Source of the DNA: Pedobacter sp. SYP-B3415
GTDB taxonomy: Bacteria; Bacteroidota; Bacteroidia; Sphingobacteriales; Sphingobacteriaceae
Length of the DNA stretch: 64,000 bases
Direction: 5' to 3'
Assembly: GCF_004138205.1 (NCBI RefSeq)
Contig: NZ_RXNQ01000031.1
Span: 62,001 to 126,000 of the forward strand
The notes under the pieces were generated by a model. The model ran no database searches. It was not told the origin of the DNA and was given only the letters and a program-made list of their open reading frames with translations. Below are positions 15,884-24,922 of the stretch, piece after piece (positions within the stretch are counted from its first letter, which is position 1; the number at the start of each line of letters is the position of its first letter). Made by a program: the position numbers and the translations under genes.

Positions 15884-16177
15884 ATGAACCGGACCACGAA
15901 CGAAAACCTTTCCTCCTCGCTGGTTAGTCTTGCATTGAACGTGAAATCAGCTGACGGGCAGCAGCCGTGTTTCGCCCGGTTGTATGCTTATGCCAACAGC
16001 TACCTGCGAACAAGTAATGCAGCTGTTAAAAGTACGCCGCCGGCGCCTGTTGGTCCGTCTGTGCTTCGCGAACTGATGATTAACGGTCGTTCGCAGGAGG
16101 ATATCTGTCGAGGCCGCGGCCTCTCCCGAACCGAGATGATGCGCAAACTCAGACAGGAACTTCAGCGTCTTCGGTAG
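15884..16177 (+). CDS. Small unknown protein with HTH-like C terminus
   Basis: I do not recognise this protein. From the ATG at 15884 it has 97 residues (a longer frame opens at 15770, but that start codon falls inside the CAAAATGCCG repeat cluster). The C-terminal 45 residues (LRELMINGRSQEDICRGRG then SRTEMMRKLRQELQRL) read like a helix-turn-helix, so it could be a small DNA-binding protein acting on the repeats just upstream; that is inference. Its last 29 bases overlap the 3' end of the convergent PP-loop gene. Codon use looks ordinary. It may also be a chance frame. Confidence 0.45.
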   Translation: MNRTTNENLSSSLVSLALNVKSADGQQPCFARLYAYANSYLRTSNAAVKSTPPAPVGPSVLRELMINGRSQEDICRGRGLSRTEMMRKLRQELQRLR

Positions 16178-16880
16178 TAGACATGGGCAAGAGGTCAAGG
16201 TACCAATAACCATGTGTTTCGTTTATATCTGAGGAAGTTTTGAACCCGAACGAACGGAAAACTACATCGCCGCGTTTAAAGGTAATTTTATCTAAAAAAA
16301 AGGGCGCCCGATAGACGAAGCTATGGTATTCACCATTTTCCCCGCAGGGATCAGTACCCGGCAAAAGTAACTTAATTAGTTCAGGCCCTACTTCACGGCC
16401 AAGAGCGGGCCGCTGGTTTTCAAGTACGCAACACAGCAGTGCGCCAAAGTTCTTTCTCCGGAATTCATCGAGGAGGACTTTGGTATCTTCTGCCCAGATC
16501 GGAAAACTGCAGGTTACCCCGTACGCCGCAAGCTGCTTTTCGCGATAGTCGCGCAGATCCTGCAGGTGGATGTCGCCAAAAACGGAATGGTAAATACCCT
16601 GGTTTTTCAGAACAGCCCAGTGCCCGCGCATGCTTTCAGCATAGGCAGACATCGTCTGGTTTTCGGGCACATAAATCTTGTAAAGGGGGATGCCTGTTGC
16701 GGCAGCCTGAAGATCAAGCATCTCTTCGCGGACACCATGCATGGATACACGACCATGATCGGCATTGACCGTGGTAAGCAAATAAACAACTTCGATATCA
16801 CCGGCTTCAAGAACCCGGTTTAGTGCCAAAGCACTGTCTTTACCGCCGCTCCAGTTAAATACGGCTTTAGTTCTTACCAT
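16149..16880 (-). CDS. Dph6-like PP-loop ATP pyrophosphatase
   Basis: A 243-residue N-type ATP pyrophosphatase (diphthine-ammonia ligase family, TIGR00290-like). The PP-loop SGGKDSALAL is at residues 10-19, and family blocks HGVREEMLDLQA, VFGDIHLQDLRDYREKQL and AEDTKVLLDEF follow. Eukaryotic/archaeal Dph6 amidates diphthine on translation factor EF2; bacteria lack diphthamide, so the real substrate is unknown, presumably ATP-dependent amide formation on a small molecule or protein. Its ATG lies 14 bases inside the upstream sirtuin gene, implying translational coupling. The pair is the next minus-strand unit after the B12 operon. Confidence 0.85.
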   Translation of the reverse strand: MVRTKAVFNWSGGKDSALALNRVLEAGDIEVVYLLTTVNADHGRVSMHGVREEMLDLQAAATGIPLYKIYVPENQTMSAYAESMRGHWAVLKNQGIYHSVFGDIHLQDLRDYREKQLAAYGVTCSFPIWAEDTKVLLDEFRRKNFGALLCCVLENQRPALGREVGPELIKLLLPGTDPCGENGEYHSFVYRAPFFLDKITFKRGDVVFRSFGFKTSSDINETHGYWYLDLLPMSTTEDAEVPV

Positions 16881-17568
16881 GTTCCCTCAACAGTGCATCA
16901 TAAAGAACCCGCACGCCGGTCACAGCCTTATCGGCTATCGGTCTGGTATTGGCGATGCCGTGGGTGGCGGGTATATGCGGATCAATGATGTATTTTTTTA
17001 CATGTTCAGGCACATAATCGATAAGACCCGCTGCCGGATAGACCGCCAGCGAGGTGCCGATTACCGCAAATATTTCAGCCGAGGAACACAGTTCGGCGGC
17101 AGGAATAATCATAGGGACCTGTTCGCCGAACCAGACAATATGCGGACGAAGCTGGCTGCCAAGTTCGCAAACATCGCCCATCCTGATACCGTCGGCGCCT
17201 GCCTGGTAAATAAGTTCAGGATTTCGGGTACTGCGCGCCTGCGTGATCAGTCCGTGCAGATGCAAAACATTCAGGCTGCCTGCGCGCTCATGCAGGTCGT
17301 CTACATTTTGTGTAATGATCGTAACCTCAAAGTATTCCTGAAGCGCCGCGAGCAACCGGTGTGCATCATTTGGTTCGGCTTTCAGCACCTGTTCCCGACG
17401 CTCATTATAAAAGCGCTGAACTTTTTCCGGGTCCCGCAGCCACGCTTCGGGCGTAGCCACTTCTTCCACACGGTGACCTTCCCAGAGGCCATCGCTGTCC
17501 CGAAAGGTCTTCAATCCGCTTTCGGCGCTGATACCCGCACCGGTAAGAACTACCAACTTTTTCATCAT
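16867..17568 (-). CDS. SIR2 family NAD-dependent protein deacylase, zinc-less
   Basis: A 233-residue sirtuin that would remove acyl groups from lysines using NAD. The NAD-binding GAGISAESGLKTFRD, the TQNVDDLHERAG block and catalytic His105 in LHLHG are present. The four zinc-binding cysteines that E. coli CobB carries between this His and the PHIVWFGE motif are missing: only one Cys remains there (GDVCELG). The GxS and VYPAA blocks at the C terminus are normal. MMKK gives two adjacent starts. It overlaps the PP-loop gene by 14 bases and is separated by 50 bases and a terminator from the DUF6580 gene upstream. Confidence 0.93.
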   Translation of the reverse strand: MMKKLVVLTGAGISAESGLKTFRDSDGLWEGHRVEEVATPEAWLRDPEKVQRFYNERREQVLKAEPNDAHRLLAALQEYFEVTIITQNVDDLHERAGSLNVLHLHGLITQARSTRNPELIYQAGADGIRMGDVCELGSQLRPHIVWFGEQVPMIIPAAELCSSAEIFAVIGTSLAVYPAAGLIDYVPEHVKKYIIDPHIPATHGIANTRPIADKAVTGVRVLYDALLREHGKN

Positions 17569-17584
17569 TCGACAATGTATAGGG

Positions 17585-17611
17585 CAAAAAAAACCCTTCC
17601 TGGCGGAAGGG
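17585..17611 (-). terminator. Intrinsic terminator of the B12 operon's last gene
   Basis: On the minus strand the perfect seven-base stem CCCTTCC/GGAAGGG with a four-base loop (17594-17611) is followed by T9. It lies 7 bases past the stop of the DUF6580 gene and separates it from the sirtuin gene. Confidence 0.8.
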
Positions 17612-17618
17612 CTGTATT

Positions 17619-18212
17619 TTAAGCGGCTAAAAGTCCGGGTCTTTTCAAGGCCGGGTATTTTGCTTTGATAAACTCAAATGCACCAAACATCAAACTACCG
17701 TAGATCAGTGTTCCCGCGAGGAAGTTCCGCTCGAATGGAATGGCCCGTTCCAGGCAAAGCCAGAATCCGGCAGCATCCTGCGTATATGATGGATTTTGAA
17801 ACCATACGCCGAAATCTGTTACGATCCAGTGAATAACTACGGTCACCATGGCGGCGGCAAATATATTCAGCACTTTTGGTCTCCTGATGATCAGGCGACC
17901 AGCAAGCACCATAAGCGCAAAGGCAAGATAGGTCCAATGCCAGCCATCGTAAGAGAATCCATTGCTGTAGGCTTTGTAAATGGTATTTGCCAGAACAAAA
18001 TCGCTCAGGAACAAACTCAGTAAGGGAAATGCAAAAGCCTTGCCCCAGCTCTTGAAATAAGCACCACCAAAAAGCGCAACCGCGCCTATTGAGCTGAAAT
18101 TGGCAAATGCCAATACGTCTGTATTAAAGGTAACGAGCAACCGGAAAAGCGTGATCAGCAAAATGATACACACCAGGATGACGGTACGCGGGTTAAATTG
18201 CACTTTCGACAT
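17619..18212 (-). CDS. DUF6580 family integral membrane protein
   Basis: A 197-residue polytopic membrane protein with about five to six hydrophobic helices, recognised as DUF6580, annotated only as a putative transport protein. The size, the start (RTVILVCIILLITLFRLL...FSSIGAVALFGGAYF) and the helix count resemble an S-component of an ECF vitamin transporter, though no EcfA/T genes are present. It is last after the cobalamin riboswitch and the TonB receptor, so a role in carrying cobalamin, a precursor or cobalt across the inner membrane is a reasonable inference. A weak hairpin before it may reduce its expression relative to the rest. Confidence 0.78.
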   Translation of the reverse strand: MSKVQFNPRTVILVCIILLITLFRLLVTFNTDVLAFANFSSIGAVALFGGAYFKSWGKAFAFPLLSLFLSDFVLANTIYKAYSNGFSYDGWHWTYLAFALMVLAGRLIIRRPKVLNIFAAAMVTVVIHWIVTDFGVWFQNPSYTQDAAGFWLCLERAIPFERNFLAGTLIYGSLMFGAFEFIKAKYPALKRPGLLAA

Positions 18213-18252
18213 GTTATTTAATTAAAAAAACAAAGTTAAGACATTCCGGGAA

Positions 18253-18273
18253 TAAAAAAAGCGGGCTGCGCCC
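18253..18273 (-). terminator. Weak hairpin with U-run inside the operon
   Basis: On the minus strand a short GGGC-GCA-GCCC hairpin followed by GC and T7 begins 3 bases past the stop at 18276. The stem is only four pairs, so it is likely a partial terminator or attenuator between the last lipoprotein gene and the DUF6580 gene. Confidence 0.45.
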
Positions 18274-18275
18274 CC

Positions 18276-19403
18276 TTAGTCGGGGAACAAAAACATCGAG
18301 GTAAAGTAGTAACTTTCATCGATAGTTCCGTTCATCACCTTGTTAAACGGCATGCGTTTTTTCAGCGCGCCGGTTTGCGCATCGTGAAAATAAAGCGTGT
18401 TCACGGTGTAGTTACTCCCAAATCCATCTTGCACACTGGTTGTAACCAGTTCATTCCGTTTTCCGTCAAAACCGAGGTTCTTTTTGTAGAAAGACTGCTT
18501 GTCAGGCATGATGATGAACGGCAGTGCCAGGCTTTCCTTTTTCCCGGACACGTACCGGTACAGCTCCTTTCCTCCGCCAAAACTTGCGGAGCGCACCAGG
18601 TACACCGTATTCTCTCTTGTAGAAGCGATGATCGGCGATGGGTACCATGCAAACCATGTAGATGAGGTTGTCCAGGGTAGCTCTACGCTATCGGCTACCA
18701 GCGTTCCGGGATCGATGTTGTAAAGAAATTTACCTTTTGTATACCAGACCTGCTTGTCTGGTGTCTGGGCAAAGCCTTGAGTAACGCCTTTGATTTTTTT
18801 TGCTACCGACAAGTCAGACCGTTTGTAAATAACGGCCCCCTCCGATTGCGATAAGGCAAAGATATGCGTACCTGCATTCAGCAGATCGCCTACCTGTCCG
18901 GATGCAGCCGCGAGTTTTGTATTAGCCTTCATGCTGCGCAGGTCGAGCAGGAAGATGCCGTTAGAGCTGCTCAACAAGGCCGTCTGGTCGTCGAGGCCGG
19001 CGATTGCCCGGAAGTCATTCCCCGTACCGCTCATCCGTCCGGTTTCTTTAAAGGTTTTGGCATCGACAGCAATCACAGGTCCGCCGGCTTTGTTAACCAG
19101 ATAAATCTTGTCGTTGAGTTTTGCCGCATACTGAAGCGTTGATGAAGCCGTACCAGCCTCTTTACCCTTGTTTTCTTTCAGGAAAACACTATCTGACAGC
19201 TGTTCGGTACTATACCGGAAAAAACTTGCTTCTCCGCTCCCACGGCCAAACCAGCCCTCATGAATCAGAAAAAAACCATCTTCATATTTTCCCACAACCG
19301 GATCAATAGGGTCAGGAACAGCAGTTTCTTTCTGACAGGATGTAAACAGGATGACCGCTGCTGCGATCGCGGCGCCAGAACGGCTCATTTTTTTTAAAAA
19401 CAT
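18276..19403 (-). CDS. Surface lipoprotein, DUF5074-type beta-propeller (BtuG-like)
   Basis: A 375-residue lipoprotein: signal MFLKKMSRSGAAIAAAVILFTSC with lipobox LFTSC (Cys23). The mature part begins with GKYEDGFFLIHEGWFGRGSGEASFF, the 'IxNEGxxGxxxxSxS' opening seen in YncE/DUF5074 propellers, and continues with seven-fold-like blade repeats. In Bacteroides the BtuG protein, a propeller lipoprotein, captures B12 at the surface and hands it to BtuB; position in a cobalamin-riboswitch operon supports the same role here. It is the third propeller and the fourth lipoprotein in this operon, so it may instead handle another corrinoid or a related metal chelate. No peptidase or lyase motif is seen. 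Confidence 0.82.
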   Translation of the reverse strand: MFLKKMSRSGAAIAAAVILFTSCQKETAVPDPIDPVVGKYEDGFFLIHEGWFGRGSGEASFFRYSTEQLSDSVFLKENKGKEAGTASSTLQYAAKLNDKIYLVNKAGGPVIAVDAKTFKETGRMSGTGNDFRAIAGLDDQTALLSSSNGIFLLDLRSMKANTKLAAASGQVGDLLNAGTHIFALSQSEGAVIYKRSDLSVAKKIKGVTQGFAQTPDKQVWYTKGKFLYNIDPGTLVADSVELPWTTSSTWFAWYPSPIIASTRENTVYLVRSASFGGGKELYRYVSGKKESLALPFIIMPDKQSFYKKNLGFDGKRNELVTTSVQDGFGSNYTVNTLYFHDAQTGALKKRMPFNKVMNGTIDESYYFTSMFLFPD

Positions 19404-19418
19404 GTATATGAAAAGAAG

Positions 19419-20312
19419 TTAAGGATTTAACAGTTTCAGGTCGGCAACGCCGGAAATTTCGGTGGAGAGTTCACCGAGCCAGCCCATATTGGCCTGAATA
19501 CCGGTCTGAATTTTTATAAAGTCGATGCCGGTTAGCACAACTTTGTTGCCTTTTGCGTCGATTGCATTGTCAAGGTCTAAGCGGTCTTCAAGTGCAGAAT
19601 TATCTGCATAACCAAATGGGAATGCCAGACTTTTCACCGAAGCAGGGTTCGACATGTCAATATTTGAAGAGGGAAGCACCACGCCTTTAATGGTGTAAGT
19701 ATTGGAAGTAATCCACTCCGGGTAATAGGCTTGTTTGTGAAAGGTGTTTGTCTTCACGACGCCAGAGTTACCCTTATTGTCAGTCCATGGAACATCGCCT
19801 GTTGCCGGATTGGGACGCGTATATGTTACCTCATAGTCCCGCACATAACCGGCTTTGCCGTATTCGCTTCCTTTCAGCTCGTACCAGGTATCATCAGCCT
19901 TGCCATTGCCGTTTATATCCTGCATGACATACACGACACCAGGCTCTGCAAAGTTTGCAAAGGCATTGTTATAAATCACGATGTCATCTTTCCCGGCAAT
20001 ATTTGCAACCGTGTGGTCGAAAGCCAGTTCAATGCTTCCGCCCCAGGCGCCAAGTGAAACCAGGCCTTTTTTGCCGAGAATTCCGTTGGCGCTTTCCAGG
20101 TTACCTGGCGCTTTGTTAATAAATTGCCCGGGTGCCGGATTGTAGGCCAGCAGCTGTGTAGCGTAAGCATTACTGCCTGGCTTCGGGTCTCGCGGTACGA
20201 AAACGCCCTGGTCTTCGTCTGCCGGCGTTGATTCTGTTTTTTTACATCCGCCGAGGGCGAAAAAGCCTGCAAGCAATAGAATGAGGTAATGTGGATTAAT
20301 GTTCTTGTTCAT
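19419..20312 (-). CDS. Surface lipoprotein of the B12 operon with a Ca-loop motif
   Basis: A 297-residue lipoprotein: signal ending ALLAGFFALGGC-type lipobox (LGGC; Cys23), then a threonine/proline linker. The mature protein reads like a jelly-roll or PKD-like binding domain ('cell surface protein' in Bacteroidota annotations). A calcium-loop-like sequence DINGNGKADDTWYELKG (about 131-147) and GGSIELAFDHTVAN suggest a beta-sandwich ligand-binding module. It lies between two propeller genes with gaps of 8 and 15 bases, so it is certainly part of the operon. Bacteroides B12 loci also encode non-propeller surface B12-binding lipoproteins; this may be a functional equivalent, but I cannot establish homology by eye. 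Confidence 0.78.
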   Translation of the reverse strand: MNKNINPHYLILLLAGFFALGGCKKTESTPADEDQGVFVPRDPKPGSNAYATQLLAYNPAPGQFINKAPGNLESANGILGKKGLVSLGAWGGSIELAFDHTVANIAGKDDIVIYNNAFANFAEPGVVYVMQDINGNGKADDTWYELKGSEYGKAGYVRDYEVTYTRPNPATGDVPWTDNKGNSGVVKTNTFHKQAYYPEWITSNTYTIKGVVLPSSNIDMSNPASVKSLAFPFGYADNSALEDRLDLDNAIDAKGNKVVLTGIDFIKIQTGIQANMGWLGELSTEISGVADLKLLNP

Positions 20313-20320
20313 AGGTAAGA

Positions 20321-21451
20321 TTACTTATAACTATACACGAATACAGCACGTTGTGGAGTTGTTCCTGTAGCAAAGCTGAATATTTTTTTTCCGGCGGCTG
20401 AGAAATATATGGCTTCGCCGGATGGGGCGCTGAATTTTGAGTCAGTGAGCAAAACCGCTTTATCAAACGGATTAACCGTCAGTGCGTAGGGGCTCGTAAA
20501 CGTGACCTGATCCTGAATGAAGTCATTCTTTTTCACAAGTGTCATGGGATCCAGGGAGCCAATGAAAGGCTTGCCATCACGGTAAAGACCGCCAACTGCC
20601 AGCGCGGTATTATCAGAAAAAACCATGCTATTAATTTCAGTGTTCGCACTCGACATCACCTGGTCAGTCACCGTGCTCAGTTTTACAACCCCGCCACCAG
20701 CAGCTGAGTAATCGGCGGCATATCCCACAAGCAGCGTTCCGTCAGGGCCGGCAGCAATTGTTGTTGGATTCAACCCAACCTCGACGTCTTTCAGTTTGCT
20801 CAGGTCAGCTAAACGAAGAACCGATACCGAATTATTTTTGCCTGAACCGGGTACAGTATAGTCATTTGCCGTGTTAATAACGTATAGTTTCCCATTCGCA
20901 ATGGCAATGCCTTCAAGTGCTGAGCCGGCAGCAACTTTCTTATCAACCAGCAGGCTTGCTGTGTCTATCTGGCTGATGCTTCCATCATAGGCAGAAACGT
21001 AAGCCTTGCTACCGCTGAAAGCGACCGAACGTGGCATGACCCCCTTACCATTTTGATTAAAAGAAATCTCCTTAATTAGTTTGCCTGTATTCACATCCAT
21101 GACCACTACGAACGACTCAGCGGTAGTAAGCGATCCGGATACTACACAATACATTTTGCTCCCGTAACGCTTCAGATCATTGGCGCTCTGACCCAGTGCC
21201 CGACCATTTACTTTCTGAAATATATCGGCCTCTGTCCGGTTGCCGGCAATATCGTGATAACTTATGGAGCTGTTATTTGCCGGCCAGGCGCCCTCATTCA
21301 GCACATAAATTCCGACCGTTTTGTCGACTACCGGCTCCGGTTTGATCTTTTCCAGTATCTCGTCTTCTCCGGTTTTGCTGCATGAGGCCATAACGAATGG
21401 TAAGGCGAGGCCAGCAGCCAGCTGCATCAGTTTTTTGTAGTTTTTATTCAT
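20321..21451 (-). CDS. Surface lipoprotein, YncE/DUF5074-type beta-propeller (BtuG-like)
   Basis: A 376-residue lipoprotein: MNKNYKKLMQLAAGLALPFVMASC with lipobox VMASC (Cys24). The mature start KTVGIYVLNEGAWPANNSSISYHD matches the DUF5074/YncE propeller opening, and repeated 'GKLYVINTANDY', 'GSKAYVSAYDGSI' strands mark blades. It resembles its neighbours at 21455 and 18276 in architecture, pointing to local duplication and divergence. By analogy to BtuG it should sit on the outer face of the outer membrane, bind cobalamin and cap the TonB receptor encoded two genes upstream. The start lies three bases after the stop of the preceding gene. Confidence 0.84.
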   Translation of the reverse strand: MNKNYKKLMQLAAGLALPFVMASCSKTGEDEILEKIKPEPVVDKTVGIYVLNEGAWPANNSSISYHDIAGNRTEADIFQKVNGRALGQSANDLKRYGSKMYCVVSGSLTTAESFVVVMDVNTGKLIKEISFNQNGKGVMPRSVAFSGSKAYVSAYDGSISQIDTASLLVDKKVAAGSALEGIAIANGKLYVINTANDYTVPGSGKNNSVSVLRLADLSKLKDVEVGLNPTTIAAGPDGTLLVGYAADYSAAGGGVVKLSTVTDQVMSSANTEINSMVFSDNTALAVGGLYRDGKPFIGSLDPMTLVKKNDFIQDQVTFTSPYALTVNPFDKAVLLTDSKFSAPSGEAIYFSAAGKKIFSFATGTTPQRAVFVYSYK

Positions 21452-21454
21452 GTT

Positions 21455-22594
21455 CTATTGTGTTTTTTTGAGAAATGCAATGTGTGCCGGGATGTCGCCG
21501 GTGGTAACCGACCATTTAAGTTTTCCGTTGCTGCCAAAGCAGTGCAGGGTTCCTGGCGAAACATAATCTTTTGCGTCGGTAAGTAGGATATCTTTGTTTT
21601 CCGGATTAACAGCTATGCCATATGGCATGGTGATTCTGCCCGGCTGGTCCATCCCGTCGGTTATAAAGGAGCGTTGAAGCGGTCTTTCTGTACGCAGATC
21701 GAGCATGGTATAACTGATCACGTTTTTGCCTGTCTGATAATTAAAGGCGGTGCCGCATATGTAAGCCGTATCGGCACTGATATCCAGATCACTTATAGCC
21801 AGATCAAAGCTAGTTTTGACCCGGTCGGCACCGGTATCAATGACATAAAGTTTTGGGGGAATGTCATAATAATCGCCGCGCGAACTCACGTAAAGATCAC
21901 CATATGCATCAGCGCGCACCCGGTGCAGGTTGATACCTACATCAATCCGCTTTGTTTCGCGAAAAGTGCCGAGATCAATAACTGAAAGTGTGCGTTCATA
22001 ATTTGGCGCGCTGTATCCTCCGGAGTTTGCAACAAACAACCGGCCGCCCACAACCGCCAGTTCTTCCGGCTGTCGGCCAACCGTCACCCTGCGTGTAATG
22101 CTCAGCGAAGCCGTATCAATTTCACTTACACTGCCCTGGGGTGCATCCGGATCTCCGACGACCCCCAGATAGGCGGTTACATATGCCTTTCCGCCGGAGA
22201 ATGTGATGTACCTGCAATTATCCAGATTGATCTGTCTCAGCCTTTTATACGTTCGGGCATCAAGCACCTCGATCTTATTTGAAACATTGACTACCACATA
22301 AACCTTGCTGCCATAAACGGCCACATCATTGCCAACATCACCTAATCCGCTGCTTCCGGGGTTGCCCTTGCTAAAAACGTCGCTATGATAGGTCCCGGTG
22401 CCGTAGTCGAAATAATCGAGGGCAGCCTTGTTCATGTTCATATTTCCCTCATTGAGCAAAAAGAAACCCGATACGCGGTTAAGCGTTTCGGCGGGTACGG
22501 GCTGCCCTTCTTCCGGTTCGGGCCCCAGGTCCTTCCGGCAGCCGCTAAGTACGAGCATGGCCATAATGAAGCAACACATTTTTCTACAAGCCAT
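21455..22594 (-). CDS. Surface lipoprotein, YncE-type beta-propeller (best BtuG candidate)
   Basis: A 379-residue propeller lipoprotein immediately following the receptor gene. I place the start at the ATG at 22594, giving MACRKMCCFIMAMLVLSGC, a short signal peptide with lipobox LVLSGC; ATG 22612 is an alternative, and the longest frame (22681) runs far into the receptor gene. Mature sequence opens RVSGFFLLNEGNMNMNKAALDYFDY, the DUF5074/YncE signature, and shows regular blade strands such as GSKVYVVVNVSNKIEVLDARTY. The 11-base overlap with the receptor stop implies coupled synthesis, which fits a 1:1 receptor-lid complex as known for BtuB-BtuG. Confidence 0.86.
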   Translation of the reverse strand: MACRKMCCFIMAMLVLSGCRKDLGPEPEEGQPVPAETLNRVSGFFLLNEGNMNMNKAALDYFDYGTGTYHSDVFSKGNPGSSGLGDVGNDVAVYGSKVYVVVNVSNKIEVLDARTYKRLRQINLDNCRYITFSGGKAYVTAYLGVVGDPDAPQGSVSEIDTASLSITRRVTVGRQPEELAVVGGRLFVANSGGYSAPNYERTLSVIDLGTFRETKRIDVGINLHRVRADAYGDLYVSSRGDYYDIPPKLYVIDTGADRVKTSFDLAISDLDISADTAYICGTAFNYQTGKNVISYTMLDLRTERPLQRSFITDGMDQPGRITMPYGIAVNPENKDILLTDAKDYVSPGTLHCFGSNGKLKWSVTTGDIPAHIAFLKKTQ

Positions 22595-24632
22595 GCGTTT
22601 CTCGTTTTGCATGATCAAACTGCCAGGAAAGGCCCAGCCGGTAGTTGCGGCCGGGCATAGGAAAATTTTTAACCACGTCATATTGCTGATTCAACATGTT
22701 ATTTACTTCCAGATTTACGGACAACAGCCTTCTGCCAGATTGCGCCCGGTAATGGAGCGACAGATCGTGCGTATACCATGGTTGCAGGTAGTTGGAACGG
22801 ATATTGGCTTTCTGGGCATAGCGCTCGCCCGTATAGACGAAACTGTAGCTCAAGCCTGCTGCACCATAATCTGCACTGGCGGTGAAGGTTCCGCTGTGCT
22901 TTGGAATGTATAGGATCTGCTGTCCAGGGGCCGCACCAGGGGTCGTTTCGATCGCCTTTTGAAAGGTGTAACCAAACAGTAATGTAAAATCCAGTTTGCT
23001 GCCTGCCTGGCCGGCCATACGTAAGGTAGCATCCAGACCTCTGATTTCAACCTCGTCCAAATTGATCATGGCCCAGCGAAACAGGTTCTGCCCGGGCACG
23101 GCCACAATTTTATCAGTTACCTTATTGTAATAAACATCCGCCTGTGCGTCGAGTGTGCGAAGTACTCCGCTGCCCAGGTTATTGGCAGAGGTAAGGCCCA
23201 AATTTATTTGCTTTGCATACTCGGGTCGCAGGAACGAATTACCTGAGAAAGTATAATACAGATCGTTGAAACTGGGCATTCGAAAAATCTCCTTATAGAA
23301 ACCTCGAAGGTGTATGGGAACTTCGCTGACCGCTTGCCAGTTAAAAGAAACAGATGGCGTTAATTTCCTGAAATCGTTTGCCTGCAGGTAATACTGTACA
23401 TCTTCATCAACTACGGTCGACAGCAGATTCGCCTCAACCAGGAAATTTTTAAGTTGTAACCTGCTAACGGCTGCTGCTAATAACGTTTGCCGGGAAGGAT
23501 AGGGAAAGCGGTACAAATTCGCACGCATATCGTTAAGCTGGTAGTCGCCTGACAGACCTATCTCCCAAAATCCGGTAATTTCATATTGAGATGATAACGA
23601 GGCATATAATTCGTCTGAACGAAACAGGTTGTTTAAAAAACCTGCATCCGTGGTAATCTCCGGATCAAGATATCTGAGCCGGTCATGGCTGTATTTTCCG
23701 GAGAATGACCATGCAAACCGTCGGCCGATTTGCCGCCTGTATTTTCCCTGTACAAACAGATTGTCGTCCCACTGCCGCTGTCGCGCTTCAAAACGGTTGG
23801 ATACGATTGCCCGGGGCAGCCCTCGCTCCGAGCTGTACTGATAAAACTTCAAATGCCACGCCGCCAGAGAGTCGTTGGGACCAAAAATATCAGCTTCGTT
23901 TCTTACCGACCAGATATCAGTGTTTTGCCTGACGGCGGATGTATCTGTTGTTCCGATCCGGCTTCTGAAACCATAGCGTCCGTTGGCGTTTAAGAATTCG
24001 CTATTGATCCTGGCTGAAATCCGTCTTCCCAACTTTTGTTCGATGCTTAGCGATGGATTGACGAATCCATATGATCCGCCTTTGAGTGCAACGCGATAGC
24101 GCCGGGCCAGCCGGCCTTCGAACACAGGCCTGCGGCTTTCCATATAAATGGCTGATGCGCTGGCATAGGCCCTTGCCGGCAAAAGCAAACCCGGTTTCTG
24201 TCCGTTATACAACGAGATCAATTCCATGTTATCAAGAGAGAAACGCCCGAGATCGACCTGTCCGTTCTGCATGTTTCCCAGTTGCACGCCATCATAGAAC
24301 ACACCGACGTGATTTGTTCCCATGCTGCGCACATTAACCGTTTTAAGGCCGCCGATACCGCCGTAATCTTTAAGTTGCACCCCTGAAAAAAACCGGACCG
24401 CATCTGCAACCGACAGGCTGTGCATACGGCTAAGCTGCAAGCCTGACAGGACCTGTACGGGAACAACGGAGCGCCGGAGCTCAGGAACAAGCCGCTCGCG
24501 GATCTGTACTTCTTCGAGTTGTCTGAACCGCTGGACAGAATCTGATTGCGCAAAAGATCGGCCCGCCATCAATGTGGCGAAAGACATGCTAAAAAGCAGG
24601 ATCTTGCTAAAAACGGGTTTGCGATCGGTCAT
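22584..24632 (-). CDS. btuB: TonB-dependent cobalamin receptor (BtuB-like)
   Basis: A 682-residue outer-membrane receptor: signal peptide ending SFAQS, a plug domain (about 30-145; EEVQIRERLVPEL, the block VLSGLQLSRMHSLSVADAVRFFSG, GGLKTVNVRSMGTNHVGVFYDGVQLGN), and a 22-strand-type barrel with the C-terminal aromatic strand YRLGLSWQFDHAKRETHGL. It lacks the N-terminal carboxypeptidase-like domain of SusC proteins, as expected for a BtuB/FepA-type transporter. Start is ATG 24632; the TTG three codons earlier is less likely. A cobalamin riboswitch lies about 110 bases upstream on the same strand, which is the basis for assigning B12 as substrate. Confidence 0.92.
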   Translation of the reverse strand: MTDRKPVFSKILLFSMSFATLMAGRSFAQSDSVQRFRQLEEVQIRERLVPELRRSVVPVQVLSGLQLSRMHSLSVADAVRFFSGVQLKDYGGIGGLKTVNVRSMGTNHVGVFYDGVQLGNMQNGQVDLGRFSLDNMELISLYNGQKPGLLLPARAYASASAIYMESRRPVFEGRLARRYRVALKGGSYGFVNPSLSIEQKLGRRISARINSEFLNANGRYGFRSRIGTTDTSAVRQNTDIWSVRNEADIFGPNDSLAAWHLKFYQYSSERGLPRAIVSNRFEARQRQWDDNLFVQGKYRRQIGRRFAWSFSGKYSHDRLRYLDPEITTDAGFLNNLFRSDELYASLSSQYEITGFWEIGLSGDYQLNDMRANLYRFPYPSRQTLLAAAVSRLQLKNFLVEANLLSTVVDEDVQYYLQANDFRKLTPSVSFNWQAVSEVPIHLRGFYKEIFRMPSFNDLYYTFSGNSFLRPEYAKQINLGLTSANNLGSGVLRTLDAQADVYYNKVTDKIVAVPGQNLFRWAMINLDEVEIRGLDATLRMAGQAGSKLDFTLLFGYTFQKAIETTPGAAPGQQILYIPKHSGTFTASADYGAAGLSYSFVYTGERYAQKANIRSNYLQPWYTHDLSLHYRAQSGRRLLSVNLEVNNMLNQQYDVVKNFPMPGRNYRLGLSWQFDHAKRETHGL

Positions 24633-24669
24633 TGCATACAAATAAATACGGCAAAGGCGGTAAAGCGAA

Positions 24670-24696
24670 AGACAGCAGCATACACGTGCTGCGTAC
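24670..24696 (-). promoter_or_regulatory. Hairpin in the riboswitch-to-btuB leader
   Basis: GCAGCA and TGCTGC arms pair around a short CGTGTA loop on the minus strand, between the riboswitch core and the receptor ATG. It may be part of the expression platform; there is no U-run, so control would act on translation rather than termination. Confidence 0.4.
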
Positions 24697-24742
24697 AGTT
24701 TTCCGGCTTCAGTCCGCGAAAGCCATGAAATTATGTATCAAA

Positions 24743-24909
24743 GGCAGGTCTTCTGACTTACTCCCGGTTGGTCCGCCTTCCCTCCCGTAACAGGAAGTGG
24801 CATTCGATTGGAAACCGTTAACAGAGTTTACAGCTGCGCGACAGTTACGGATTTTCACCGTATTCCCTTTTAATCTTCAGCCCGGCTGTACCGGTGAAGA
24901 ACCTTTTGA
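24743..24909 (-). ncRNA. Cobalamin (B12) riboswitch
   Basis: Read on the minus strand, the leader contains the conserved AAAAGGGAATACGGTGAAAA entry, ATCC and ACTG junction elements, the GCAGCTGTAAAC stem, the B12-box core ATGCCACTTCCTG with GGGAAGGCGG, and the closing AGTCAGAAGACCTGCC. This order matches the cobalamin aptamer (P3-P6 core and the L5/L13 pseudoknot partners). It precedes btuB and the operon down to 17619, so binding of a cobalamin should switch off receptor and lipoprotein synthesis. Confidence 0.96.
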
Positions 24910-24914
24910 TGCCG

Positions 24915-24922
24915 CGAAGGTA
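24915..24922 (-). promoter_or_regulatory. -7-like box for the B12 operon
   Basis: TACCTTCG on the minus strand is one base from TAnnTTTG. Transcription starting a few bases later would begin at about 24909, exactly where the riboswitch core starts. Confidence 0.4.

Follow-up and report, generated by a model that had tools for sequence, protein, structure and literature searches.

A cobalamin riboswitch operon of Pedobacter that ends in DUF6580, a candidate inner-membrane importer of B12 in Bacteroidota

Many Bacteroidota possess B12 riboswitches and BtuB-type receptors but lack BtuCD, which raises the question of how the vitamin crosses their inner membrane. The question is posed in compact form by a minus-strand locus of Pedobacter sp. 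SYP-B3415, located in the 64-kb stretch of contig NZ_RXNQ01000031.1 analyzed here (the window, in whose coordinates all positions are given), where a run of surface-capture genes is followed by a gene for a membrane protein of the DUF6580 family. We propose that DUF6580 is most likely a solitary B12 importer with an S-component fold, which replaces BtuFCD and works in a BtuM-like manner. In a large fraction of Bacteroidota, it probably takes the place of the classical BtuCD pump. We infer three things in saying so, namely B12 as the substrate, the direction of its movement, and transport without an energy module.

The original prediction had placed a cobalamin riboswitch at 24743-24909 and had called for an Rfam/Infernal scan. 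That scan recovers the RF00174 aptamer at 24727-24921 on the minus strand, over the full length of the model, with 107.4 bits (E = 6.2e-26) against a gathering score of 31.5 bits, and it is the only Rfam match above threshold within the 64-kb window. From the riboswitch, the genes follow on the minus strand in the order BtuB, propeller A, propeller B, BtuH-like lipoprotein, propeller C, and DUF6580. The ORFs agree with the gene run and spacing given earlier, with an overlap of 11 bases between btuB and propeller A, and then gaps of 3, 8, 15, and 63 bases down to DUF6580; the overlap requires that propeller A, whose longest ORF begins at 22681, start at an internal ATG before its lipobox, as its coordinates below assume. 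Directly behind DUF6580, the unit is closed by a stem-loop resembling an intrinsic terminator (17592-17613, minus strand; 9 pairs plus a T-run in a consensus scan). The leader between the aptamer and btuB folds only somewhat better than its shuffles (z = -2.1) and shows no clear terminator or anti-terminator. The aptamer, along with homology of the products to BtuB1, BtuG1, and BtuH, bears out the reading of the locus as a B12-riboswitch uptake operon, which, to judge from the sequence, B12 would repress via the riboswitch.

The receptor (22584-24632, minus strand) combines a plug with a TonB barrel (Pfam); its start is taken as the ATG at 24632, the ORF also having a TTG at 24641. Among PDB sequences, it is nearest to Bacteroides BtuB1 (8blw_A, E = 4e-139), the following matches being at E = 3e-20 and weaker. 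As it does not reach the cut-off of TIGR01779, the NCBIfam equivalog for TonB-B12 receptors (81.1 versus 599.7 bits), we name it BtuB1-like, by its similarity to the Bacteroides protein. Propellers A (21455-22594, minus strand) and B (20321-21451, minus strand), with lipoboxes recognized by eye, are lipoproteins clearly similar to BtuG1, matching residues 50-363 (E = 1.8e-48) and 36-373 (E = 9.4e-44) of 8blw_B, respectively; by homology they are BtuG-like, predicted B12 binders. The next lipoprotein (19419-20312, minus strand), for which there is no Pfam family up to E = 0.01, had been termed "non-propeller." Its sequence identifies it as a counterpart of the BtuH domain, which in B. theta is joined to BtuG1 in one protein: it matches residues 376-661 of 8blw_B (E = 2.3e-58) and BtuH2 (7biz, E = 2.3e-50), and keeps four of the six polar B12 contacts (Q333, N399, H476, and W577), with Y510 and W511 replaced. 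Propeller C (18276-19403, minus strand) is a DUF5074 lipoprotein (PF16819, E = 1.4e-66), a domain that Pfam also finds in propellers B (1e-11) and A (3.5e-15). The idea that it is one more BtuG was rejected because it resembles BtuG chains only weakly (0.03 to BtuG1 in 8ptf/8ptd and 6e-5 to 8p97); its best solved relative is the PDB chain 9s6c (E = 7.9e-9), and this match does not establish a Btu identity.

Of the three propellers and fourth lipoprotein described originally, all four lipoproteins are present and three carry DUF5074; the fourth, considered as a new kind, proved to be of a known one, BtuH. The contention that known Bacteroides loci pair BtuB with one propeller was too strong. 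According to a published account (PMC12751083), operon 1 of B. theta encodes BtuK1, BtuK2, BtuH1, BtuB1, BtuGH, and BtuJ1, and its four operons together specify ten cobalamin-binding proteins; B12 operons with multiple lipoproteins are already published. What is novel here is the final gene and not how many lipoproteins there are; the surface-capture genes are less of a novelty than had been claimed.

This last gene (17619-18212, minus strand) encodes a six-helix membrane protein of the family PF20221 (E = 1.1e-49; 169.2 bits against a gathering score of 27), our candidate for the inner-membrane B12 importer. In structure comparisons with two AlphaFold models, the B12 transporter BtuM ranked first and the other matches were almost only ECF S-components, CbiM/NikM-type metal S-proteins among them; the predicted fold is hence that of an S-component nearest to BtuM. 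The first model gave 8c7p as the best match (Z = 13.3), tied with FolT, and the second gave 8ovv (Z = 13.9) and 8c7p (Z = 13.7), with the next match at 12.3. A Foldseek search with the model is weak when taken alone (best E = 0.37). Against PDB sequences, BtuM entries included, the DUF6580 profile A1 matched nothing up to E = 10. Across 38 DUF6580 sequences, there is no invariant cysteine column that would correspond to the cobalt-ligating cysteine of BtuM (best column, 23 of 38). Of 17 conserved residues, 11 are placed toward the outside, a distribution that is not significant (p = 0.13). No match to DUF6580 was found in plasmid records.

The genome of the host (99.96% complete) uses B12, as the presence of MetH indicates, and also encodes methylmalonyl-CoA mutase family proteins. 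As originally stated, no BtuFCD importer is present: there is none in the operon, and a whole-genome search found no FecCD (PF01032)/BtuC permease. The genome also has no ECF-T (PF02361), on which ground we rejected the idea that DUF6580 belongs to a canonical ECF transporter. Among 296 Bacteroidota genomes, 101 have only DUF6580, 174 only a strong FecCD, 18 both, and 3 neither (against about 62 expected under independence, calculated by hand), in counts that ignore relatedness and in which the FecCD family also takes in siderophore and heme permeases rather than BtuC alone. The cut-off for a strong FecCD was 1e-40, and the 18 genomes with a weaker best match were counted as lacking it; when these are counted as present, the figures are 84, 175, 35, and 2 (by hand). 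By majority label, the 139 genera divide into 67 with DUF6580 only, 63 with FecCD only, 9 with both, and none with neither. The presence lists and taxon labels behind the genome, genus, and family counts were transferred by hand; G211, with DUF6580 below the cut-off, was counted as lacking it, and G045 and G118 were recoded likewise in the family sample. DUF6580 is found in 99 of the 101 riboswitch-bearing genomes without a strong FecCD, and ECF-T in 8 of the 119 genomes with DUF6580. BtuCD or BtuFCD lies under the riboswitch in some lineages without DUF6580, although in only 5 of the 23 loci inspected there (L163, L164, L191, L192, and L193; three genera), and the exchange of DUF6580 for BtuC in the same riboswitch operon occurs within families and once within a genus (G031 versus G006 and G048). 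These genome-wide and phylum-wide tests make the original suggestion of DUF6580 as the inner-membrane candidate much stronger.

We propose that the whole locus would constitute an envelope route for cobalamin scavenging. The BtuG-type propellers and the free-standing BtuH-type lipoprotein would bind the corrinoid and then pass it to BtuB, which would move it into the periplasm using TonB energy. DUF6580 would accept it on the periplasmic side and, as has been proposed for BtuM, move it across the inner membrane on its own, with neither BtuFCD nor an ECF module.

It is conceivable, though unlikely, that DUF6580 instead transports a part or precursor of B12 under riboswitch control (alpha-ribazole, dimethylbenzimidazole, cobinamide only, or cobalt), with intact B12 taking another route. 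S-component folds have many substrates, the metal S-proteins noted above are among the fold matches, and CobU and CobT are encoded close to DUF6580 in two loci (L118 and L168). This reading nevertheless leaves unexplained the near-universal presence of DUF6580 in genomes without any FecCD and the presence of BtuC in its slot in other lineages, and BtuM was twice the top fold match. We consider it quite improbable that DUF6580 is an accessory protein or sensor, with B12 crossing by an unrecognized ABC or peptide-type (e.g., BacA-like) transporter. Many DUF6580 genes do lie away from a riboswitch (in a set of 37 DUF6580 loci, 22 have none in the stretch), and sensor kinases too contain S-component folds, according to the portion available of a published study (PMC11109136), but such a role requires another, unseen importer gained and lost along with DUF6580. 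The exclusion between DUF6580 and FecCD is partly a clade effect: just 3 of 50 families (f1, f14, and f23) include both DUF6580-bearing and FecCD-only genera, and DUF6580 and CbiQ are also seldom found together (8 genomes). That it is nothing but two unrelated genes in different branches is, however, very improbable, given the near-empty "neither" class, which for DUF6580 and CbiQ holds 105 genomes (by hand), and the exchanges within families and within a genus in the same riboswitch operon.

Neighborhood analysis of DUF6580, as had been suggested, placed a riboswitch upstream in 72 of 80 loci, using our own motif search, which recovered 11 of 11 Infernal sites and none in three shuffles of 2.37 Mb. 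The 80- and 37-locus sets overlap by one, since L167 and L138, having the same gene order, look like the same locus. Owing to a short stem and T-run in the 63-bp gap upstream of DUF6580, its co-transcription with the operon is not certain, but it is scarcely credible that the operon stops there and that DUF6580 follows the capture genes without being related to them. DUF6580 keeps the riboswitch in loci lacking the lipoprotein genes, the order most often seen among the 80 loci is riboswitch-receptor-DUF6580, and the riboswitch directly precedes DUF6580 in L127, L150, and L168. Behind the terminator lie two conserved neighbors on the minus strand, a Sir2 deacylase (PF02146; 16867-17568), found near DUF6580 in 66 of the 80 loci, and a DUF71 ATP pyrophosphatase (PF01902; 16149-16880).

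Should DUF6580 prove to be the importer, a Pfam family that still has no name would turn out to be a core vitamin transporter in a major phylum, and predictions of B12 uptake and sharing in these bacteria would change. It would also be a second S-component fold that moves B12 without an ECF module and would help in learning how such proteins work alone. A more elaborate version, of which we are doubtful, holds that this new module-free importer family has taken over from BtuFCD in roughly half the genera of Bacteroidota and that in many Pedobacter it is matched with a BtuF-like protein that lacks a leader and stays in the cytosol, an intracellular B12 trap giving the facilitator its direction. 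This BtuF-like protein is not needed everywhere: a search of the window's genome gave no match, and proteins closely related to it (55-61% identity) are encoded by G236 and G327, two genomes that lack DUF6580. Our literature search found no paper naming DUF6580, and the name BtuN does not occur among the matches listed; for Bacteroidota without BtuCD, the sole match, in its available part, concerned a Sphingomonas. A 2003 comparative-genomics paper, reportedly the source from which the BtuM paper drew alternative B12 transporters, may already list the family under another name.

Comparison with known systems places the locus as follows. A gene for a DUF71/COG2102 protein, predicted to act in B12 salvage, adjoins the genes for B12 uptake in the window and lies near DUF6580 in 56 of the 80 loci; the available part of the 2012 paper on them gives BtuCDF and CbiB as neighbors, and we noticed no mention there of a DUF6580 transporter (PMC3541065). 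With the B12 operons of B. theta (BtuB1 with BtuG1/BtuGH, BtuH, BtuK, and BtuJ), the locus shares the cobalamin riboswitch, the BtuB1-like receptor, BtuG propellers, the BtuH domain, and several surface lipoproteins, but it has the G and H domains as separate genes and two BtuG-like propellers plus one DUF5074 protein. Where B. theta has BtuB2-BtuG2 with BtuFCD, the window has DUF6580 in the place expected for the latter. BtuFCD, which some relatives without DUF6580 carry in this riboswitch operon, is an unrelated assembly of permease, ATPase, and binding protein, and the window's genome is without FecCD. The predicted fold is common to DUF6580 and the ECF S-components (FolT, RibU, BioY, ThiT, and others), whereas ECF-T is missing from this genome and from 111 of the 119 with DUF6580. 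BtuM, mainly from Proteobacteria according to the accessible text of PMC6072759, differs from the Bacteroidota family DUF6580 in having the invariant cysteine and in showing no detectable sequence similarity to it; yet both are small six-helix membrane proteins with an S-component fold (predicted for DUF6580, with BtuM as its top structural match), accompanied by a BtuB-type receptor, with no ECF module in the host genome.

The operon opens with a full-length cobalamin riboswitch aptamer of the RF00174 type (minus strand, 24727-24921), which, in agreement with the original prediction, was recovered by the Infernal scan at 107.4 bits (E 6.2e-26) and was the only Rfam family over threshold within the 64-kb window. 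On the same strand, ORF and Pfam analysis places a TonB-dependent receptor (22584-24632), propeller A (21455-22594), propeller B (20321-21451), a non-propeller lipoprotein (19419-20312), propeller C (18276-19403) and the membrane protein DUF6580 (17619-18212), separated by the same intergenic gaps as first described. A terminator-like stem and T-run follow DUF6580 (minus strand, 17613-17592), and the transcription unit therefore probably consists of these six genes. A short G+C stem with a seven-T run also lies between propeller C and DUF6580 (18247-18275) and might partially uncouple the latter from the upstream genes. The stretch past the terminator (16149-17568) encodes a Sir2 deacylase and, separated by it from the B12 operon, an ATP pyrophosphatase of the DUF71 family.

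The surface apparatus combines known parts in a new arrangement. The receptor matches BtuB1 of B. theta (8blw_A, E 4e-139) and stays below the NCBIfam cut-off built for BtuB (81 versus 600 bits). For propellers A and B, the match is to the propeller half of BtuG1 (E 1.8e-48 and 9.4e-44, respectively), and the remaining half of that chain (residues 376-661) is matched by the non-propeller lipoprotein (E 2.3e-58); hence BtuG1/BtuGH, described in PMC10404256 as one fused protein in B. theta, is split over separate genes in the window. This lipoprotein had been regarded as an extra beyond the BtuG model, but it is BtuH-like (E 2.3e-50 to BtuH2). It keeps four of the six polar B12 contacts listed for BtuH2 in PMC8941943 (Q333, N399, H476, and W577), with Y510 and W511 replaced, and residue mapping indicates that F401 and L578 are also retained. 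Propeller C is a DUF5074 domain (Pfam) with a remote likeness to BtuG. The original view that known Bacteroides loci pair BtuB with a single propeller was too strong, since multi-lipoprotein B12 operons have already been published: PMC12751083 describes B. theta operon 1 (BtuK1, BtuK2, BtuH1, BtuB1, BtuGH, and BtuJ1), whose promoters are repressed by B12 in reporter tests. Elsewhere in Pedobacter, up to six BtuG/BtuH/DUF5074-like genes lie between BtuB and DUF6580 (loci L122, L123, L128, and L129). Two BtuH-like genes, in some cases with extra BtuG-like genes, occur in the Pedobacter operons L119, L120, L122, L123, L128, L129, L132, L141, and L142, whose lipoprotein sets are larger than that of the window.

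We place the interest in DUF6580 rather than in the surface genes. The genome containing the window (99.96% complete) encodes the B12-dependent methionine synthase MetH and methylmalonyl-CoA mutase family proteins, and possesses a second cobalamin riboswitch (about L003:17527-17717), downstream of which an ORF (L003:15063-17363) looks, by eye, like metE. The reported lack of BtuFCD in the operon extends to the entire genome, where neither a permease of the FecCD family, which includes BtuC, nor an ECF-T protein was found; the FecCD search was positive in 13 of 14 well-known genomes used as a control. This genome uses B12 without a recognized inner-membrane importer. According to PMC6072759, many B12-auxotrophic Gram-negative bacteria possess BtuB and lack BtuCDF; the paper also relates that alternative B12 importers, BtuM included, had been predicted earlier. 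We propose, as a well-supported hypothesis, that DUF6580 is a probable substitute for BtuFCD in many Bacteroidota, which, if true, would fill a known gap and is cheap to test.

The neighborhood search that had been suggested ties DUF6580 to cobalamin riboswitches. A scan of named genomes confirmed 518 DUF6580 relatives, and 72 of the best 80 loci, which are mostly from one genus and not independent, have a same-strand upstream riboswitch. Pedobacter accounts for 70 of these 80, with P. yulinensis the closest (80% identity), which makes a Pedobacter-like member of the Sphingobacteriaceae the most likely source of the window. The commonest order in the 80 loci is riboswitch, a receptor of about 630 aa from another BtuB-like subfamily, and DUF6580. 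Among 37 further loci, mostly from other lineages and partly chosen with riboswitch positions already known, a riboswitch was found within a stretch of at most 19.8 kb in 15 (upstream on the same strand in 13) and not in 22. The riboswitch lies immediately ahead of DUF6580 in L127 (186 bp), L150 (68 bp), and L168 (162 bp), and two tandem riboswitches flank the gene in three genomes of one family (G267:C8, G345:C320, and G387:C6). Homologues of Sir2 and DUF71 are found near DUF6580 in 66 and 56, respectively, of the best 80 loci; a role in B12 salvage has been predicted for bacterial DUF71 (PMC3541065).

In a sample of 296 Bacteroidota genomes, DUF6580 is over the cut-off in 119, 192 have a FecCD match counted as strong (best E < 1e-40), and 288 have a cobalamin riboswitch. 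Both proteins occur in 18 genomes, DUF6580 only in 101, FecCD only in 174, and neither in 3 (G282, G400, and G438), where about 62 would be expected under independence. The corresponding counts are 18, 99, 169, and 2 for riboswitch-bearing genomes; 9, 67, 63, and 0 for 139 genera labeled by majority; and 35, 84, 175, and 2 when 18 weak-FecCD genomes are recounted as FecCD bearing. Fisher tests give 8e-56 for genomes and 3e-30 for genera, values that ignore relatedness and are not to be read literally. Only 3 of 50 families have both DUF6580-bearing and FecCD-only genera; for the contrast pair DUF6580 and CbiQ, neither is present in 105 of the 296 genomes (hand count). Because the FecCD family also covers siderophore and heme permeases, its members are not always BtuC; where FecCD is wholly absent, BtuC is excluded. 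In their distribution over the sampled Bacteroidota, DUF6580 and FecCD replace each other. Within the family of the window (151 sampled genomes, 114 riboswitch bearing), 106 of the 114 have DUF6580; of the remaining eight, three have FecCD and five (71-92% complete) have neither.

In some lineages, BtuCD or BtuFCD takes the very slot of DUF6580. Inspection of 23 riboswitch-centered loci, all from DUF6580-less genomes, showed an ABC importer inside the riboswitch operon in five: BtuF-BtuC-BtuD in L163, L191, L192, and L193, and an adenosyltransferase, BtuC, and BtuD (Pfam) in L164. L191 to L193 come from three members of a single genus within a mostly DUF6580-bearing family; the one riboswitch locus inspected in each of this genus's other three genomes shows no BtuC. 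The two other sampled members of the L164 genus (G006 and G048) have DUF6580 and no FecCD. The remaining loci have BtuB, BtuG, or different genes after the riboswitch, one yielded no riboswitch by custom motif search, and in G265 and G401 an opposite-strand FecCD gene lies about 1-3 kb from the riboswitch. The L164 cluster (L164:4303-17000) combines two riboswitches, BtuCD, a cobalamin adenosyltransferase and, by eye, a CobU-like gene.

A BtuF-like protein (PF01497) is encoded near DUF6580 in 47 of the best 80 of the 518 relatives, many from Pedobacter. Many Pedobacter, and Bacteroidota of some other kinds, have its gene behind DUF6580 (L064:10732-11670, L143:10389-11354, L168:9771-10709, and L178:9900-10838, among others). 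In the phylum sample the two genes are adjacent in 10 of the 119 genomes with DUF6580 (hand count), and the window's genome has no match to this protein. In six ORF starts viewed by eye, the domain begins at once, apparently leaving no room for a signal peptide; the protein may serve to trap B12 in the cytosol.

The AlphaFold model of the window's DUF6580 is confident (pLDDT 91) and reads as six membrane helices. Foldseek returned nothing up to E 0.001 (best E 0.37), and structural realignment gave the top rank to cyanocobalamin-bound BtuM (Z 13.3; 168 residues at 3.6 A), level with folate S-components. S-components or related CbiM/NikM-type proteins fill rows 1-21, after which Z drops to 7.0. 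The realignment tool warns that a shared arrangement of helices can bring helical bundles to a Z of about 13; the consistency in kind among the matches is a better argument than the Z value. A model of a Salegentibacter relative (pLDDT 88), built from a largely different alignment, places two BtuM entries on top (Z 13.9 and 13.7; next 12.3), its top 21 rows comprising 20 S-components or CbiM and one MreD. Residues conserved towards the predicted outer side include R24, N38, D71, Y95, W137, and Y143, although overall enrichment of conserved residues there is not significant (p 0.13). Our literature search found no mention of DUF6580, which may have been predicted earlier under another name, and the main text of PMC11109136, on the S-component fold, names neither PF20221 nor a DUF of any kind.

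Taken with the surface proteins, among whose published relatives BtuG serves as a lid on BtuB (PMC10404256) and BtuH binds B12 (PMC8941943), DUF6580 would carry periplasmic B12 into the cytosol with no ATPase. The closest parallel is BtuM, which, as described in PMC6072759, rescues an E. coli importer mutant by complementation and is proposed to act by facilitated diffusion, the sink being adenosylation of B12 inside the cell. Since DUF6580 has no sequence link to PDB chains up to E 10 and no invariant cysteine was found in it, it would be BtuM-like at most in its working, a predicted likeness rather than an identity; common to both is the S-component fold, which in DUF6580 is predicted.
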